Shown here: in pieces, positions 6,164-64,000 of the stretch | Numbering within the stretch: the stretch's first letter is position 1 | Layout: every line of letters starts with the position of its first letter | Assembly (NCBI RefSeq): GCF_040436365.1 | Contig: NZ_AP026369.1 | Location: 248,001 to 312,000 of the forward strand | From: Hydrogenimonas sp. SS33 | GTDB taxonomy: Bacteria > Campylobacterota > Campylobacteria > Campylobacterales > Hydrogenimonadaceae | Direction of reading: 5' to 3' | Length of the DNA: 64,000 nucleotides | Made by a program: the position numbers and the translations under genes | The notes under the pieces: generated by a model | Seen by the model: the letters and a program-made list of their open reading frames with translations, nothing else | What the model was told of the DNA's origin: nothing | Database searches by the model: none

Positions 6164-6925
6164 ATGATCGAGATCAAAGGTTTGAAAAAACGTTTCGGCC
6201 CCAAAGAGGTGCTCAAAGGGGTCGACCTGACCATTCCGGAAGGGAAGACGACCGTCATTCTGGGCCTCTCCGGAGGCGGAAAATCGACGATCATCAAACA
6301 TATCGTCGGCCTTCTCAAACCCGACGAGGGGGAGATCTGGGTCGACGGCGAAGAGGTCGGCCATGCCGACGAAGAGACGATTCGCCGCATCCGGAAAAAG
6401 GTCGGGTTTCTCTTTCAAAGCGGGGCGCTTTTTGACAGTATGAATGTTTACGAAAATGTCGCCTTCCCCCTCAGGGAACATACGAAGATGAAAGAGAAGG
6501 AGATCAGAGAGCGTGTCGTCGAGTGCCTGGAGATGGTGGCACTCAAACCCAAAGAGGTCCTGAACCTCTTCCCCGACGAACTTTCGGGCGGTATGCGCAA
6601 ACGGGTGGGGTTGGCCAGAACCATCGTGCTGGGCCCCGGGACTATCCTCTACGACGAGCCCACCAGCGGACTCGACCCTATCACCAGCGACATGATCTCC
6701 CAGATGATCATCCATCTCAAAAACGAACTGGGCGTCACCTCCGTCCTCATCTCCCATGACATCAAAGAGAGCTTCAAATGCGGCGACTATTTCGCCATGC
6801 TCTATGACGGCAAAATCATCGAATTCGGCGATGCCGAACACTTCCGCACGACGAGCAACCCCTACGTCCGCCAATTCCTCGACGGCAAAAGCGAAGGCCC
6901 CATCAAGTTTCAGGAAAAGAAGTAA
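6164..6925 (+). CDS. MlaF-type ABC transporter ATP-binding protein (orphan copy)
   Basis: This is a 253 aa ABC ATPase of the Mla/Mce lipid-transport subfamily. Walker A is GLSGGGKST, the region after the Q-loop reads FQSGALFDSMNVYENV (a stretch typical of MlaF), the signature is LSGGMRKRVGLAR, and Walker B leads into DEPTSGLDP. No MlaE permease or MCE-domain protein is adjacent, whereas a complete MlaE-F-D set with its own ATPase lies at 25.4-28.4 kb. It may serve a permease encoded elsewhere. It is followed by ftsZ in convergent orientation. Confidence 0.9.
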   Translation: MIEIKGLKKRFGPKEVLKGVDLTIPEGKTTVILGLSGGGKSTIIKHIVGLLKPDEGEIWVDGEEVGHADEETIRRIRKKVGFLFQSGALFDSMNVYENVAFPLREHTKMKEKEIRERVVECLEMVALKPKEVLNLFPDELSGGMRKRVGLARTIVLGPGTILYDEPTSGLDPITSDMISQMIIHLKNELGVTSVLISHDIKESFKCGDYFAMLYDGKIIEFGDAEHFRTTSNPYVRQFLDGKSEGPIKFQEKK

Positions 6926-15606: not shown

Positions 15607-16521
15607 GTGGCTGCCAACTCCGATATGCTCGAAGCCGTGGAACGACAGATGCGGCACTATGTCGCCGAGCTGAACAACGACATCATCATGCAGCTTTTCG
15701 AAAAACTTCCCAAAGGCAAACGCCTGCGGGCGAAGCTGGTTTTGAAAGTGGCCGGGGCACGCCGGGAAGCGGTGGAGCTGGCGGCGATCATCGAGATGAT
15801 CCACGCCGCGAGCCTGCTTCACGACGATGTCATCGACGATGCCCGGACACGCCGGGGCGTGGCGTCGATGAACGCCACGGAGGGAAGCAAACAGGCGATC
15901 ATGATGGGGGATATCCTCTACTCCAAAGGCTTCGAGGCGTTGACGGGTTTTTCGCCCAAAATCGCCTCCGCCGTGGCCCGGGCCGTTACGCAGCTGAGCA
16001 TCGGGGAGCTGATGGATGTACGCCTGGGAGAGCGTTTCAACCCGGATCTGGATGCCTACAGGCAGATGATCTACCAAAAGACCGCCGCCCTCATCGAAGC
16101 GACGGCGGCGGCTGCGGCGCTGCTGGCGGGGCGGGACGAGAAAATCTACGCCATCTACGGCCGCAACCTGGGGATCGCCTTTCAGATCATCGACGATATT
16201 CTCGATATTACCCAGACTTCCGAGCAGCTGGGCAAACCGGCGATGCACGACTTCGAGGAGGGGAAAACGACGCTGCCCTACATCTACCTCTACGAAGCGC
16301 TGGACGAAAAGGGGAGGGAAAAACTGGTCTCGCTGCACGGCAAACCCCTCGATGAAGAGGAGAAAGGGTGGATCGTCACCCAGATGGAGGAGTCGGGCGC
16401 GCTGCGTAAAGCCTACCTCTACGCCAGGGAGCTGGGGGAAGAGGCGGTCGCCCTGATGGAAGGGGAGGGTGAAGAGGCCCTCGCCCAGATCGTGACGGCG
16501 ATGATCGAGAGGGAGTATTGA
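15607..16521 (+). CDS. ispB: polyprenyl diphosphate synthase (octaprenyl/solanesyl type)
   Basis: This enzyme extends farnesyl or geranylgeranyl diphosphate with isopentenyl units to the long side chain used for quinones (menaquinone in Campylobacterota). The protein has 304 aa with GTG start 15607, directly after the preceding stop. The first aspartate-rich motif is LLHDDVIDDARTRRG and the second is QIIDDILDIT. KGKRLRAKLVLKVA is the substrate-binding region. The small residues before the first motif suggest a long-chain product, but the chain length cannot be read reliably. hemA follows with a 1 bp overlap. Confidence 0.9.
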   Translation: MAANSDMLEAVERQMRHYVAELNNDIIMQLFEKLPKGKRLRAKLVLKVAGARREAVELAAIIEMIHAASLLHDDVIDDARTRRGVASMNATEGSKQAIMMGDILYSKGFEALTGFSPKIASAVARAVTQLSIGELMDVRLGERFNPDLDAYRQMIYQKTAALIEATAAAAALLAGRDEKIYAIYGRNLGIAFQIIDDILDITQTSEQLGKPAMHDFEEGKTTLPYIYLYEALDEKGREKLVSLHGKPLDEEEKGWIVTQMEESGALRKAYLYARELGEEAVALMEGEGEEALAQIVTAMIEREY

Positions 16522-17828
16522 TGCAGTACGTCGTCGTCAGTTTTTCCCATAAAAATACCGATATTGTTGTCAGGGAGAAGCTCTCCTTCTCCAATGAAGA
16601 GGAGAAACGCAAGGCGCTGGACAATGTGCTGGAGATCCGCGACATCAACGAAGCGATTCTCCTCTCCACCTGCAACCGGGTCGAATTCATCGTCAGTACC
16701 TCCAACCCCTCCGCGGCGCTGGATATCATCTTCATGACCCTGCACCATCACAGCGGCCTCTCGGTCGAAGAGCTCGAAGGGCGTGCCGACGTCTATGAAG
16801 ACGAGGGGGCGGTACACCATGTCTTCGCCGTCGCCTCCTCCCTCGACAGCCTCGTAGTCGGGGAGACGCAGATCGCCGGCCAGCTCAAGGACGCTTTCCG
16901 GTTCGCCTACGAAAACGGCTACTGCGGCCAGAAACTGGCGCGGGTGATCCACTTCGCCTTCAAATGTGCCGCCGAAGTACGCAACTCCACCGACATCTCC
17001 AAGAGCCCGGTCTCCGTCGCCGCGGCCGCCGTGGCCCAGGCGAAGGAGGTGATGGGGGGCAATCTCGGCGGGTTTACGGGCCTGGTCGTGGGGGCCGGGG
17101 AGATGAGCCGCATCGTCGCCCAGCACCTGGTGGCCAACGGGTGCAACGTCATCATCTTCAACCGTACGATGGAAAAGGCCAAGGCGATCGCCGACGAAGT
17201 GGGAGAGCGCATCGACGTGGAGCCTTTTCATGCCCTGCCCGAATTCATCAACCGTTACCGTCTTCTTTTTACCGCCACCGGCGCGCCCGAGGCGATCATC
17301 AGCGACGAAATGGTCCAGCATGCGGGGTTCGACCGCCACTGGTTCGACCTGGCGGTGCCGCGGGATATCGAAGTGATCAGCGACGACAAGGTCCATATCT
17401 ACGCGGTGGACGACCTGCAGCAGATCGTCGACACCAATATGAAACTACGCCAGGAGCAGGCGCGCAAAGCCTACGAAATCGTCGGCCGCTATACCCGTGA
17501 CTTTTTCAAGTGGCTCCAGAGCCTGATGATCGAACCTCTCATCAAGGAGATCCGGCTTCAGGCGAAAGAGGCGGCGATGGCGGAAGTGTCGCGGGCCGTG
17601 AAAAAAGGGTTCATTCCGCCCGAGACCCGAGAGAATGTGGAGCGCCTGGTCCACAACGCTTTCAAGAAGTTTCTGCATGTGCCCACCAAACAGCTCAAGG
17701 CCGTCGCCGACCAGCCCCGGGCCGATACGATCATCGAGGCGATGAAGTATGTCTTTCAAACCGATACGGATATCCGGATGGGTGACAAATATAAATGCGA
17801 ATTTATCATGAAAGACGAGATTAAATAA
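16521..17828 (+). CDS. hemA: glutamyl-tRNA reductase
   Basis: HemA reduces glutamyl-tRNA(Glu) with NADPH to glutamate-1-semialdehyde, the first step of C5 tetrapyrrole synthesis. The protein has 435 aa from ATG 16521. The catalytic cysteine lies in LLSTCNRVEFIV, VVGETQIAGQLKDAF is the usual substrate-domain motif, and GLVVGAGEMSRIVAQHL forms the NADPH-binding fold. hemC is also in this window, three genes further on after an inserted gene and proS, so a haem-proS-hemC block has been interrupted. Confidence 0.96.
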   Translation: MQYVVVSFSHKNTDIVVREKLSFSNEEEKRKALDNVLEIRDINEAILLSTCNRVEFIVSTSNPSAALDIIFMTLHHHSGLSVEELEGRADVYEDEGAVHHVFAVASSLDSLVVGETQIAGQLKDAFRFAYENGYCGQKLARVIHFAFKCAAEVRNSTDISKSPVSVAAAAVAQAKEVMGGNLGGFTGLVVGAGEMSRIVAQHLVANGCNVIIFNRTMEKAKAIADEVGERIDVEPFHALPEFINRYRLLFTATGAPEAIISDEMVQHAGFDRHWFDLAVPRDIEVISDDKVHIYAVDDLQQIVDTNMKLRQEQARKAYEIVGRYTRDFFKWLQSLMIEPLIKEIRLQAKEAAMAEVSRAVKKGFIPPETRENVERLVHNAFKKFLHVPTKQLKAVADQPRADTIIEAMKYVFQTDTDIRMGDKYKCEFIMKDEIK

Positions 17829-17851
17829 TTATCCAAAAGAGTATTAAGCAT

Positions 17852-18472
17852 ATGAACTTTACAGAAGTAGTCAAAAAAATTTTAGAAAATCAGCCAATGA
17901 CTCCACAGCAAATAAGAGATGAAATCAAAAAAAAGTATCCTGAATTCTACGGAACAGAATCACATCAAAGAAACTTTGAAAAAGGGCATTACAATAGTAT
18001 CGATCATGCAGTATTGGCACAAATTTATAGTATTATTAAAACTAACGACAATTTTTTAATTGATAAATCAACAAAACCATTAACTGTAATTATTGATAAA
18101 CCAGAGCCTATTATTAATGATAAGGGTTATGTTATAGAAGATTATGAGAAAGAAGAAGGCATAGTTTATGTTTTGAAAACAAATACTTTTACAAAAGATA
18201 ATCTTGAAATAATCAAAATTGGATTTACTACACAAGATGTTGAAACAAGAATAAACCAACTATATACAACCGGTGTTCCATTTAAATTTACATTATTTAA
18301 ATCATATCCAACAAAAAACTATATTGAGCTTGAAAAAGCACTACATAAATTACTGGAACCATTTAAACTAAATAATACAAGAGAATTTTTTACAGAAGAA
18401 GCGTTAGAATATATTGATGAGATAGTAAATATACATAGTAAAATATTAAACAAAAAAATGGATGACAAATAA
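17852..18472 (+). CDS. HARE-HTH-like plus T5orf172/GIY-YIG-like protein, AT-rich foreign gene
   Basis: This 206 aa gene is strikingly AT-rich and uses codons such as ATA, AAA and TTA unlike its neighbours, so recent transfer is likely. Residues 1-75 (VVKKILENQPMTPQQIRDEIKKKYPEFYGTE onward, then a second helix bundle) resemble HARE-HTH domains found on restriction and chromatin proteins. Residues 104-195 resemble T5orf172 (MUG113), a GIY-YIG nuclease relative: IVYVL at 104-108, KIGFTT at 122-127, Arg133, then a helical EKALHKLL and REFF at 177-180. Such proteins are often phage or defence associated. It separates hemA from proS. Domain calls are by eye. Confidence 0.8.
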   Translation: MNFTEVVKKILENQPMTPQQIRDEIKKKYPEFYGTESHQRNFEKGHYNSIDHAVLAQIYSIIKTNDNFLIDKSTKPLTVIIDKPEPIINDKGYVIEDYEKEEGIVYVLKTNTFTKDNLEIIKIGFTTQDVETRINQLYTTGVPFKFTLFKSYPTKNYIELEKALHKLLEPFKLNNTREFFTEEALEYIDEIVNIHSKILNKKMDDK

Positions 18473-18563
18473 TAGGAGAGAAATATTTGATACTACGGTC
18501 AAATATTCTCAACTTAACCATTATTGAGGTATCACTATATTGGTGAAATGAAAAAACCGATCT

Positions 18564-18607: not shown

Positions 18608-20371
18608 ATGCGATTTTCCAAAATGCTGATTCCGACACTCAAAGAGGCGCCCAAGGATGCGGTGCTTCCCAGCCACATCTATCTGGTGCGCGGCGGATTT
18701 ATCTATCAGGTGGCCAGCGGCATCTACGATTTTCTCCCTCTGGGGAAAAAGGTGCTGGACAAGGTGCGGGCCATTGTCAAGGAGGAGCTCGATGCGGCGG
18801 GATGCCAGGAGGTGCAGCTGGGCTTCGTGACGCCGGCGGAGCTTTGGAAACGGAGCGGCCGGTATGAAAAGTACGGGGCGGAGCTGCTGCGTTTCGAAGA
18901 CAGGAAGGGCAACGAATTCGTCCTGGGGCCGACCCATGAAGAGATGATGGTGGAGATGGTCAAGCAGTTCGTCAGCAGCTACAAGCAGCTTCCTCTGAAC
19001 CTCTACCAGATCAACCTGAAGTTCCGGGACGAGGCGCGGCCCAGATTCGGGCTGATGCGGGGCCGGGAGTTCATCATGAAAGACGGCTACAGCTTCCACG
19101 CCGACCGGGAAGATATGATCCGCGAATTCAACCTGATGGAGTCGACCTACCGGAAGATCTTCACCCGCATGGGCCTCGACTTCAGGGTTGTGGAAGCCGA
19201 CAGCGGCGCCATCGGCGGCGAAGGGAGCAAAGAGTTCATGGTGTTGGCTGACAGCGGGGAAGACACCATCGTCGTCTGCGAGGGGTGCGACTACGCCGCC
19301 AATATCGAAGCGGCCAAACGCAAAGCCCCCGAACCTCCGGCAGAAGCCCCCGAGGCGGAGCTCAACAGCTTCCATACCCCCGGCATCAAAAGCATCGACG
19401 ACCTGGCGAAATTTTTCTATGTCGACCCCTACCATCTCGTCAAAGCGGTGGCGAAAAAGGCCCTCTACGATGAGGGCAAAAGCGAGATCGTCCTCTTTTT
19501 CCTGCGTGGTAGCGACGAACTTCAGGAGACCAAGGCGGCCAATGCCGTCGGTGCCAACGAACTGGAGGATGTGAGCGAAGAGGAGCTGGAAGCGGCGGGG
19601 CTAGTGCCGGGCTTCATGGGCCCCGTGCTGATCGTCCGAAACGTAGGCGCGTTCGAAGGGGCTCCCGTTTTTAGGGAGGAGATCGCCCATCCGGGTCTGC
19701 GGATGGTGCTGGATGAAAACCTCAAAGGCGCGAAACAGATGATCGCCGGCGCCAACGAGAAAGATTACCACCTCGTCGGTGTCGACTTCGGTGCGCTCGA
19801 AGCGCTGCCCTATGCCGACATCGCCCAGGTCCGGGAGGGAGACGCCTGCCCCCGGTGCGGCGGCAAGCTTTCTTATACGAAGGGGATCGAAGTGGGGCAC
19901 ATCTTCCAGCTTGGAACCCGCTACTCCGAACCGCTGGAGGCGACCTTCCTGGATGAAAACGGCAAGCGCAAGCCCTTTGTCATGGGAACCTACGGCATCG
20001 GCGTCAGCCGCCTGCTGGCGGCGGTCATCGAACAGCATCACGACGACCGCGGCGCCATCTGGCCCGCACCCGTCGCCCCTTTCGAAACGGTGATCGTCAT
20101 CGGCAACGTCAAGGATGCCGCCCAGAAGGAGGCGGGAGAAGCGATCTACCGGACCCTTCTGGAGGGGGGTGTGGACGTATTGCTCGACGACAGGCCGGAG
20201 CGCTTCGGTTTCAAAATGAAAGATTTCGAACTGATCGGCTTCCCCTACGCCATTGTGGTGGGTAAAAAACTCTCCGAAGGGCGGGTGGAGCTGGTCAGCC
20301 GGGAAAGCCTCGAAAAAGAGGAGCTCCCCATCGACGACGCCGTCGCCAGACTCATGGAAAAGCTGGGATGA
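18608..20371 (+). CDS. proS: prolyl-tRNA synthetase, bacterial type
   Basis: ProS charges tRNA(Pro). The protein has 587 aa from ATG 18608, which has AAAGGAA upstream; an in-frame ATG at 18524 lies in AT-rich repeat DNA and would add a non-conserved tail. Class II motifs are visible: motif 2 around [24 protein letters not shown], and motif 3 [21 protein letters not shown]. The insertion (editing) domain typical of bacterial-type ProRS lies between them, and the anticodon-binding domain is C-terminal. It overlaps fxsA by 4 bp. Confidence 0.97.
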
Positions 20372-24433: not shown

Positions 24434-24839
24434 TTGGTCGTTAGTCGTTTGTCGTTGGAACGGGGCTTCGCCCCTCTTTGATTTCAGTTTTTGTGCATTG
24501 GGCGCGTTGGGAATGATTCTAATACCAATCCCATCCAAAGAAAAACATCGGGTTCGTGCGTTTGGCACGCGGAGTGCGATTTGCCCTTCGGGACGCGGCC
24601 TCTTGCCTAAAAACCGCGAATGCCTACGGCACCCTACGGGCACGCGCGGTTTTCTTGACGGCAAGAGGCCGCTCAAATCGCAACGCTACCCAAACACACG
24701 CCCCCGATCTCTTGTATGGGATTGGCTAAGGATTGGTATAAATTAATATTTCTCAAAATTGACGAAAATCCTTGACAACGCATTCAAGATCAGCTTCGCT
24801 GATACTTTTCACTTTTCACTTTTCACTTTTCACTTTTCA
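24434..24839. repeat. composite intergenic repeat 1 with heptamer arrays at both ends
   Basis: The 398 bp gap between ubiD and the PqiC-like gene starts with heptamers TTGGTCG, TTAGTCG, TTTGTCG (24434-24454). The hairpin GGGGC-TTC-GCCCC (24462-24474), GCATTGGGC and GAATGATTCT follow. After a large palindrome (separate entry) come TTGACGAAAATCCTTGACAA and the hairpin ATCAGC-TTC-GCTGAT. It ends with five units of CTTTTCA (24805-24839). The same ordered motifs recur at 33016-33250, where the terminal heptamer is different. The last units encode the C-terminus and stop of the convergent lipoprotein gene. Confidence 0.8.
24521..24740. repeat. ~220 bp long imperfect palindrome
   Basis: The left arm from AATACCAATCCCAT (24521 on) pairs with the right arm ending ATGGGATTGG...GGATTGGTAT (24716-24739). 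Inner matched blocks are ATCGGG/CCCGAT, CGTGCGTTTGG/CCAAACACACG (one mismatch), GTGCGATTTG/CAAATCGCAAC, GCGGCCTCTTGCC/GGCAAGAGGCCGC and AAAACCGCG/CGCGGTTTT, with the centre near 24627. The whole block is absent from the sister repeat at 33.0 kb, so it looks like an insertion. Confidence 0.75.
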
Positions 24840-25438
24840 CTGCTAACCCTTCCCTCCGAAATCAACCACGCCGCTATCTCCCCCATCAGCCGGTCCATCG
24901 CTTCATTGAAGGCGGCGACGCCTCCCGGGGCATCGTCGCTCTTTGTTTTGACGGAGGCGGAAAAGAGTCGGGTGAGAACCTCTCCTTTCCGTGTCTTGAG
25001 GGTAGCCTGCAGGGTCACCACCGCCCTGGAGGGGGTGCCGTGGGAGAAGTCCTGCCATAACTCCGCCACCTCCACATAGAGCATGGCATCGGAGGGAATC
25101 GGCGTGGTACTGTCGGTGACGCTTCGGGCGATGCCGGCCTTGGAGAGGGCCAGCTGCAGCTTTTTTTCGAGCAAAGATGCGGGGGTATCGTACCAGCAGT
25201 GGTAGGCGTAGGGCTGAAGGGCGAACCCCTTTTCGAGATAGTAGATGTTCTTGGTGGCACTGAGGCGGGAATCGTGTTTGACCACGACCCGCAAGGTTTT
25301 GAAAAGGGGCGCCTTTGTGCTTCTTTCGATGGCGGGTGTTTCGGCGGCCAGGGTATAGCTGATCGTCGGCGGCACCTCTTTGACGGCACACCCTGCCAAA
25401 AGCAGCAGCGCCAGGGAAAAACCGAAAACCTTTTTCAT
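24830..25438 (-). CDS. PqiC/YmbA-like outer-membrane lipoprotein of an Mla/Mce transporter
   Basis: This 202 aa lipoprotein has a signal sequence and lipobox LLLAGC with the acylated Cys17 or nearby. The rest resembles ABC-type transport auxiliary lipoproteins (PqiC/YmbA, DUF330): ISYTLAAETP, VVVKHDSRLSATKNIYYLEKG and a C-terminal DRLMGEIAAWL helix. Such proteins are thought to receive lipid from MCE-domain rings at the outer membrane. It is the last gene of mlaE-mlaF-mlaD-lipoprotein, overlapping mlaD by 4 bp. Its last codons (SSEK and the stop) lie inside the CTTTTCA heptamer array, so repeat growth may have trimmed or replaced the natural C-terminus. Confidence 0.85.
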   Translation of the reverse strand: MKKVFGFSLALLLLAGCAVKEVPPTISYTLAAETPAIERSTKAPLFKTLRVVVKHDSRLSATKNIYYLEKGFALQPYAYHCWYDTPASLLEKKLQLALSKAGIARSVTDSTTPIPSDAMLYVEVAELWQDFSHGTPSRAVVTLQATLKTRKGEVLTRLFSASVKTKSDDAPGGVAAFNEAMDRLMGEIAAWLISEGRVSSEK

Positions 25439-62632: not shown

Positions 62633-63604
62633 TCACATATCAAGCGGACTCATCACTTTCGCCCGATTCATCTCGGCAACAACATGGGTATAGATCATTG
62701 TGGTTTCTACGCTTTTATGCCCCAGTAGCTCCTGGATCGAACGCAAGTCGATGCCGCTTTGCAGCAGATGGGTGGCATAGGAGTGGCGGAATATGTGGGA
62801 AGTGATCCGCTTGTTGATTTTGGTTTTTTGAGCTGCCTGCCGAATATTTCTTCCAAGTGTCGCTTCCAATATATGATGTCTGCGGACGATGCCGCTTCTA
62901 GGATCGCGTGAAACCTTTCTCATGGGAAAAAGATACTGCCATTTCGTTTCAAATTTCGCATTTGGATATTTACGATCCAGACGATGAGGCAGTTCCACGC
63001 TTCCGAATCCTTGTTTCAGGTCTTCTTGATGAATCGCCCTCACATTCTCGATCTGGATTTTGAGTTCTTCTTTGATCGATAACGGCAAAGGCAATGTACG
63101 GTCTTTTTGACTCTTGCTCTCCCAAAAATAGATGGTGTTAAAGCCGAAATCGACATCTTTTATGCGCAGATTGAGTACTTCACTCATACGCAATCCGCAT
63201 CCATACATGAGTTTGACAATCAGGCGATAGATACCGTCAAGATTGGCGATCACGCTCTGGACCTCTTCACGAGTCAATACCACAGGAATGTGTTTGCGCT
63301 CTTTGGCTCTCAATGCCTGAATGTTCCAATCACTTATATCGATACCGAGGACCTCCCTATAGAGAAAAAGCAGCGCGCTGAAAGCCTGGTTTTATGTCGT
63401 AGGTGAAACGTTCTGCTCTGCCGCCAACCAACTGAGAAACGACTCGATTTCTGCTTTTCCCATATGAATAGGATGCTTTTTATCATGGAAAAAAATGTAG
63501 CGTTTGACCCCCCCGATGTAAGAGCGTTCCGTCTTGAGGCTGTAATGTTTGAGTCGTATTTTGTCACGAACCATATCGAGAAGCTTCTTTTTGATCGGTG
63601 CCAT
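62633..63604 (-). pseudogene. intI: integron integrase (IntI-type tyrosine recombinase) with one in-frame stop codon
   Basis: One frame of 324 codons runs from ATG 63604 (AGGAGGT directly upstream) to TGA 62633, interrupted only by TAA at codon 71 (63394-63392), between SPTT and [16 protein letters not shown] where IntI proteins usually have Gln. A CAA-to-TAA change would explain it. The catalytic set is intact: Arg139 (GCGLRMSE), His270 and Arg273 (HIFRHSY), His296 and Tyr305 (TMIYTHV). The IntI-specific insertion before box [15 protein letters not shown]...TKWQYLFP (about 206-227), and [11 protein letters not shown] identify it as an integron integrase, not a phage one. It is either a recent pseudogene, a restart product or a sequence error. 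Confidence 0.9.
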
Positions 63605-63876
63605 TTCTACCTCCTGATAGCAGTATATTTTGTCATGCTATTGAATTTCATGGTCATTATCACGACAAAATGTGTTGATAACGGCTGAAAAATCAATAGC
63701 AAGACATTATGAATACGGAGAAATATTAGTGAAAAATGGTAAAATGGACCCAGAATATATCAATTTCTAAATTTATTTGAAATAGCACAACATTTTTTGT
63801 GTTTTGTTATTCGCAGTGGAACGGAAGATTAGGTATAATTTTTTCACACAATAAATAGTTAGCTCAAGGGGAATAC
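63605..63876 (+). other. candidate attI/Pc region between intI and first cassette
   Basis: This 272 bp AT-rich stretch lies where integrons carry attI and the cassette promoter. GTTAGCT at 63858-63864 fits the recombination core GTTRRRY at six of seven positions. TATAAT at 63834-63839 could be the -10 of a Pc-type promoter reading into the cassette; its -35 is unclear. An inverted repeat ATTTTGTC (63627-63634)/GACAAAAT (63664-63671) lies next to the intI start and may be regulatory. No second core site could be placed with certainty. Confidence 0.5.
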
Positions 63877-64000
63877 GTGACGTCATTCGTAGCGTTTTGT
63901 GAAAACCCCAAGTGTGGAGCCGTCTTTGAGGTTCCTATTCTTGTTGGTGGTCCTGGTAACGCCACTATCCACATGACAAATACGAGAGCAGGGCCATGCC
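63877..64000 (+). CDS. start of possible first cassette gene, zinc-ribbon-like protein, truncated by window
   Basis: The frame starts at GTG 63877 with AAGGGGA 5 nt upstream and runs open for 41 codons to the window end. It begins TSFVAFCENPKCGAVFEVP, and GPC comes at the end. The CxxxxC spacing and later Cys suggest a small metal-binding or zinc-ribbon protein. It begins 13 nt after the candidate GTTAGCT core site, as expected for a promoterless cassette gene. I do not recognise the family with certainty. Confidence 0.6.
   Translation, partial: MTSFVAFCENPKCGAVFEVPILVGGPGNATIHMTNTRAGPC

Follow-up and report, generated by a model that had tools for sequence, protein, structure and literature searches.

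A lone integron cassette behind hemA in Hydrogenimonas sp. SS33 with a gene for a probable HARE-HTH–GIY-YIG nuclease

A CALIN, by definition, has at least two attC sites; CALINs and In0 elements are on record for Sulfurovum and Sulfurimonas (PMC10295459). The integron integrase, IntI, also acts off target (PMC10127599), and insertion of cassettes at genomic attG or secondary sites has been obtained by experiment, as related in two papers that cite the work (Loot et al., 2024, cited in PMC12444791 and PMC11023631). In V. cholerae, anti-phage activity has been observed for at least 16 of 179 integron cassettes, and defence systems carried in this way are streamlined (PMC12409362). Among nucleases, the wH-GIY-YIG enzymes Ahi29725I and Apa233I cut m6A-containing DNA, and the HARE-HTH domain has been suggested as a reader of cytosine modification (PMC11037411); SNIPE, which is PD-Lambda-1, has a GIY-YIG domain in which residue E414 is essential for defence (PMC13190303).

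Within a 64,000-nucleotide stretch of the Hydrogenimonas sp. SS33 chromosome (the window), a gene for a 206-residue protein lies between hemA and proS. We consider it likely that this open reading frame is a single integron cassette that IntI inserted off-array behind hemA, and that it carries a type IV-like or anti-phage nuclease. As in integron cassettes and sedentary chromosomal integrons, one open reading frame is joined to an attC of the array type and begins with bases that complement its own R'' box, and a cognate intI, attI and array are present on the same chromosome; unlike those cassettes, it stands alone, 44 kb from intI, in a run of housekeeping genes, and the core triplets of its attC are mutated. 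Because CALINs need two or more attC sites, a lone cassette would not be called one, and lone natural cassettes are easily missed. The locus shares with the anti-phage cassettes of Vibrio integrons a small single-gene candidate defence system in cassette form, but it belongs to another bacterial group and lies outside the array, behind a housekeeping gene. Integrons, CALINs, secondary-site insertion of cassettes and wH-GIY-YIG nucleases are already known; what we provisionally regard as new is their combination in a lone cassette of natural origin whose two ends can both be read, placed behind a housekeeping stop codon near its own integron and carrying a HARE-HTH–T5orf172 cargo. Fusions of the HARE-HTH–T5orf172 type may, reportedly, be listed by Aravind and Iyer in 2012. 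The features of the locus are as follows.

16518 to 17828, forward strand: hemA (glutamyl-tRNA reductase), the upstream neighbour, an open reading frame with a C-terminus conserved in congeners
17829 to 18520, forward strand: the off-array integron gene cassette, 692 bp, its ends placed by its own R''/R' complementarity and the attC alignment
17829 to 17834, forward strand: TTATCC, the R' half with which the cassette begins, immediately after the hemA stop codon TAA
17852 to 18472, forward strand: the cassette gene, 206 amino acids, with a HARE-HTH-like domain at about residues 1-83 and a T5orf172/GIY-YIG domain at residues 103-193
18460 to 18526, forward strand: attC, with R'' at 18460-18466 (GGATGAC), a hairpin at 18478-18511 and R' at 18520-18526 (ATTATTG), core triplets mutated
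18609 to 20371, forward strand: proS (prolyl-tRNA synthetase), the downstream neighbour

The first-pass annotation had described an AT-rich outlier between hemA and proS and suggested that a gene had been captured within a run of housekeeping genes, and composition, empty congeners and cassette ends bear out both points. The GC content of the gene is 0.258 (25.8%) with a GC3 of 0.159, against 0.58-0.60 (58-60%) and a GC3 of 0.65-0.80 in hemA, proS, hemC and ubiD, and nowhere else in the window is the DNA so AT-rich. In the synteny comparison that the annotation had called for, hemA and proS are direct neighbours in each of the 17 congeneric genomes, and the position between them holds no gene. 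SS33 itself has one copy of the gene; 100 sampled relatives gave partial domain matches only, no further full-length relative was found among 397 genomes of the phylum, and four scans of viral contigs returned no relative. Rfam and tRNA scans gave no match at the insertion site. Freed of the cassette, the hemA–proS spacer would measure 88 bp. In several congeners (L006, L007, L010 and L011) this spacer is filled by GTGAACA/GTGAAAA heptad repeats arranged as long inverted repeats; the heptads recur at 24804-24852 of the window and resemble a small dispersed repeat family.

The attC overlaps the stop codon of the cassette gene, so that, as in a cassette, an imperfect-hairpin site closes the open reading frame at its 3' end. 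What revealed the attC was the only similar copy of its hairpin elsewhere in the genome, which lies 51 kb downstream and closes a second AT-rich gene, ahead of purH. A covariance model of five attC sites of the genus, with the window's own copy left out, finds the site at full length with 56.4 bits (E 3.4e-9 for a search of 158 kb, 5.0e-8 for the genome), and it is the sole significant site in the window. Its bottom strand folds with a z of -3.4. The array on this chromosome holds a sister attC that scores 83.1 bits, and four congeners (G005, G009, G012 and G016) have sister sites too; these sites close cassettes next to intI, an intI remnant (G005) or attI (behind it in G012). Across the 18 genomes scanned, the 69-nt element occupies about ten places, spread over five genomes. 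In an alignment of nine copies, pairing holds in 96.5% of cells and survives two-sided changes at four pairs (shuffle mean 1.2); it is lost once the arms are slid against each other. Short palindromes are common in AT-rich DNA, and a hairpin directly 3' of a stop codon might be nothing but a terminator or a common repeat, with the gene having arrived by another route. We give that explanation hardly any weight: the match takes in all 69 positions of the model, the boxes as well as the stem; no T-run follows the hairpin, and a terminator scan did not report it; the other copies whose surroundings were read are cassette ends; and an R' half is present on the 5' side.

The core triplets of this attC read GAC in R'' and ATT in R' instead of AAC and GTT. 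Because both are mutated, an R-box pattern search for attC in the insert found nothing, and for the same reason the cassette, which is probably decayed, is probably now immobile.

In a cassette, the bases just past the crossover complement its own R'' box. Here TTATCC is complementary to the R'' box at five of six positions, with a chance expectation of 0.002-0.005, and the single mismatch is the mutated core base; the starts of four array cassettes, checked against their own R'' boxes, gave 6/6, 6/6, 5/6 and 6/6. The right border falls in the R' box, at 18520^18521, and the cassette gene starts 23 bp behind the hemA stop. A 14-nt direct repeat, ATGG(G/A)TGACAAATA, at 17778 and 18458 was considered as a target duplication and is probably a chance match, because its copy at 18458 is the R'' region of the attC and its copy at 17778 lies inside conserved hemA.

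These ends bear on a further suggestion of the first-pass annotation, that of a homing-type element. Such an element would spread when its GIY-YIG nuclease cleaves the unoccupied target site and repair then copies the gene in. PHROG matches do include endonuclease and homing-endonuclease families (phrog_681, 2.2e-8; phrog_18411, 0.003). However, cassette ends on both sides (attC at 3', the R' half at 5') and a cognate integron in the same window speak against homing, and there is no intron or intein; homologs sit at unrelated places rather than at a cut site of their own, and the intergenic hemA–proS position is occupied in one species of 18 only. We consider this the least probable of the explanations weighed here.

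The cognate integron lies at the right end of the window.

62633 to 63604, reverse strand: intI, integron integrase (TIGR02249), interrupted by an in-frame TAA at 63392-63394 (codon 71)
63848 to 63861, forward strand: attI core, ACAATAAATAG^TTA, a sequence that in G012 and G016 likewise precedes the first cassettes or array genes
63877 to 64000, forward strand: first array cassette gene (SEC-C protein), running past the window end

Against a TIGR02249 cut-off of 265, intI scores 418.8 bits over the whole region and 339.7 bits after the stop, and the array extends to purH, about 6.4 kb beyond the start of attI in the window. The 3' end of hemA reads ATTAAATAA^TT and would form the left half of the insertion site. 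The pattern AWTAAATARTTA has two exact matches in the 64 kb, at attI and at the hemA junction; it was written from both and is descriptive only. In several relatives hemA ends in ATTAAATAG, that is, with TAG, which would supply a G. Both junctions of the cassette read A^TT and not G^TT, the GTT/GNT core of attG insertion, so that a mutation at one or both of them, or an atypical site, must be assumed.

We propose that a cassette circle, excised by IntI or received from outside, left or passed by the chromosomal integron, and that the folded bottom strand of its attC would have recombined with the end of hemA, which would have served as a double-stranded secondary site (attG) similar to attI; the sequence proposed for this site is ATTAAATA[A/G]^TT. 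For a single insertion, the expected clean empty site has the form ..AAATA(A/G)^TTATTGAGG... The frames of hemA and proS would have been kept, and the promoterless gene would be read through from the hemA transcript. Later, the attC cores would have changed from AAC to GAC and from GTT to ATT, intI would have been interrupted, and the gene would have become fixed in place; since intI is interrupted now, the insertion should be older or have come about through another IntI. As far as attG insertion is described in the papers that cite it, the present case resembles it in lying outside attI and attC, at a site with only a short core in common, and differs in being a natural, fixed single event with A^TT junctions in place of the reported GNT core.

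The A^TT triplets on both sides would equally suit a real cassette that arrived without IntI, either as the remnant of a shrunken array (a CALIN) or by homologous or illegitimate recombination of a cassette-bearing fragment, and a two-attC cluster with no adjacent integrase at 383.8-385.4 kb attests that arrays occur off the main integron. Nevertheless, the left border is an exact cassette start that touches the hemA stop codon, there is no second attC or foreign DNA on the left side, and the hemA end resembles attI. We therefore judge arrival without the integrase unlikely and prefer insertion by IntI.

Full-length homologs of the cassette protein are found on a Desulfobacterales contig (63% identity, frameshifted), on a conjugative plasmid of Burkholderia glumae (47%), where the gene adjoins a restriction-modification system, and on a Paraburkholderia plasmid (46%), near vapBC and recombinase genes. 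The Desulfobacterales contig has a classic attC at 6464-6548 and an attC-like half 3' of the homolog itself; attC is absent by the plasmid homologs. A sequence, TAGGAAAA, recurs at gene junctions near the plasmid homologs (L032 at 8850, 9375, 9924, 10592 and 12591; L031 at 9739, 10634 and 18812), with five occurrences in L032 against 0.23 expected. It was set aside as a cassette signal of these Burkholderiaceae plasmids, being probably a stop codon plus a ribosome-binding motif.

The C-terminal half of the protein matches T5orf172 in Pfam (PF10544; E 1.7e-14, 54.6 bits against a gathering cut-off of 20), and MUG113 also matches there. Residues Y106, G124, R133, E161, H165 and R177-E178-F179-F180 are invariant in the full-length homologs. 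PADLOC reports PDC-S57 (4.6e-24) and PD-Lambda-1 (E 2.3e-5), both confined to the nuclease domain (residues 100-204 and 119-195, respectively) rather than spanning the whole protein. By profile coordinates, E161 would fall near the position of the essential E414 of SNIPE; apart from this related GIY-YIG domain, the two proteins differ, with no membrane segment and no DUF4041 here and a HARE-HTH-like domain in their place. Sequence searches of the PDB and a Foldseek search with a low-confidence model (pTM 0.37) gave nothing informative.

The N-terminal half of the 206-residue protein gave no Pfam match, to HARE-HTH (PF05066) or any other family. In the Desulfobacterales homolog, HARE-HTH is the top Pfam family at E 0.0059 and 17.4 bits, below the cut-off of 25.9. 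Profile-profile comparison of the N-terminal domain (five relatives) with 12 genuine HARE-HTH domains from within the phylum returned a probability of 94-95% and a score of 42.7 over the whole domain, whereas 200 column shuffles scored at most 17.8. As judged from these profiles, the N-terminal domain is clearly homologous to HARE-HTH, and both domains first read from the letters, the T5orf172 (GIY-YIG-like) domain and the HARE-HTH domain, are supported, the latter despite its sub-cut-off Pfam score. Predicted helices at residues 3-13, 18-28, 36-43 and 50-64 fit a HARE-HTH with an extra helix, in a model of low overall confidence. The same HARE-like domain is fused to an unrelated, unassigned C-terminal part in another genome (L040, 742-1749, reverse strand), and it can thus be regarded as a module. 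The fusion gene in L040 adjoins a PLD-like helicase-type gene.

An N-terminal reader of winged-helix type joined to a GIY-YIG nuclease is the architecture of the type IV endonucleases Ahi29725I and Apa233I (PMC11037411). The cassette protein departs from them in its HARE-HTH-like reader, with an extra helix and a suggested preference for cytosine rather than adenine modification, and in its nuclease, which is of the T5orf172 branch and known from sequence alone. Its domains suggest that it is most likely a small modification-sensing endonuclease of type IV-like restriction or phage defence, in which the HARE-HTH domain would bind modified or foreign DNA and the GIY-YIG domain would cut it. Taken part by part, the protein is very probably a DNA endonuclease, to judge by its domains; a defensive role is slightly favoured; and the reading of a base modification is conceivable, with the balance tilting somewhat against it.

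The annotation had called the domain combination one of a kind found in restriction, defence or phage systems; the class of domain is indeed used in restriction and defence, while the defensive role is one that we infer, with PADLOC matches to the nuclease domain only. The domain class, the homolog beside a restriction system and a PD-T7-5 relative in the array of G009 make that role plausible. Since the PADLOC matches cover the GIY-YIG half only, the cassette may also be real and its protein something else, namely a factor of DNA repair or regulation, or else the nuclease component of an addiction-like cassette stabiliser, a serious contender that falls short of an even chance. Against it, HARE-HTH and GIY-YIG domains are both common in restriction enzymes (PMC11037411, PMC10853773), no partner gene adjoins, and one homolog lies beside a restriction-modification system.

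We are more doubtful of the fullest version of the defence reading, in which a new minimal, cassette-sized, modification-dependent anti-phage nuclease would have been moved by IntI to an attI-like stop-codon site of a conserved gene, would be steadily expressed there without harm to the host gene, and would have been fixed by decay of its attC. If it is true, the genome shows the route of such a gene from an integron into a housekeeping operon. With both cassette ends, the cognate integron and 17 empty relatives readable, the locus lets one ask whether integrons feed single genes into operons, the route at issue being the use of gene ends that resemble attI. Further, a domain of modification-reader type and a nuclease within 206 residues fit the reports of streamlined defence genes in integrons.

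Several minor observations concern the integrons of the genus. The attI-like sequence ACAATAAATAG^TT is found again inside the array regions of G000 and G016 (L081 at 5317; L096 at 7104 and 9617), as if attI had been duplicated or arrays had fused. An array gene with a sister attC (L081, 5332-5643) was at one point read as GIY-YIG-like from its motifs; it has no Pfam family, and that reading was dropped. In G009, an array gene (L095, 7768-9105, reverse strand) matches the PD-T7-5 defence family strongly, at E 1.4e-84. A cassette of G005 with the same attC type (L097, 991-2061, reverse strand) encodes a 356-residue protein that has no Pfam family and by eye resembles HARE-HTH/restriction-like proteins of the phylum (QERDLHKLL..FHEKS motif). 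The second off-array cluster in the SS33 genome itself, the integrase-free pair of attC sites noted above (L110, 2290-3930), consists in order of a classic attC, a frameshifted ATPase-like cassette gene and an attC-like site, followed by a GC-rich gene of housekeeping type.
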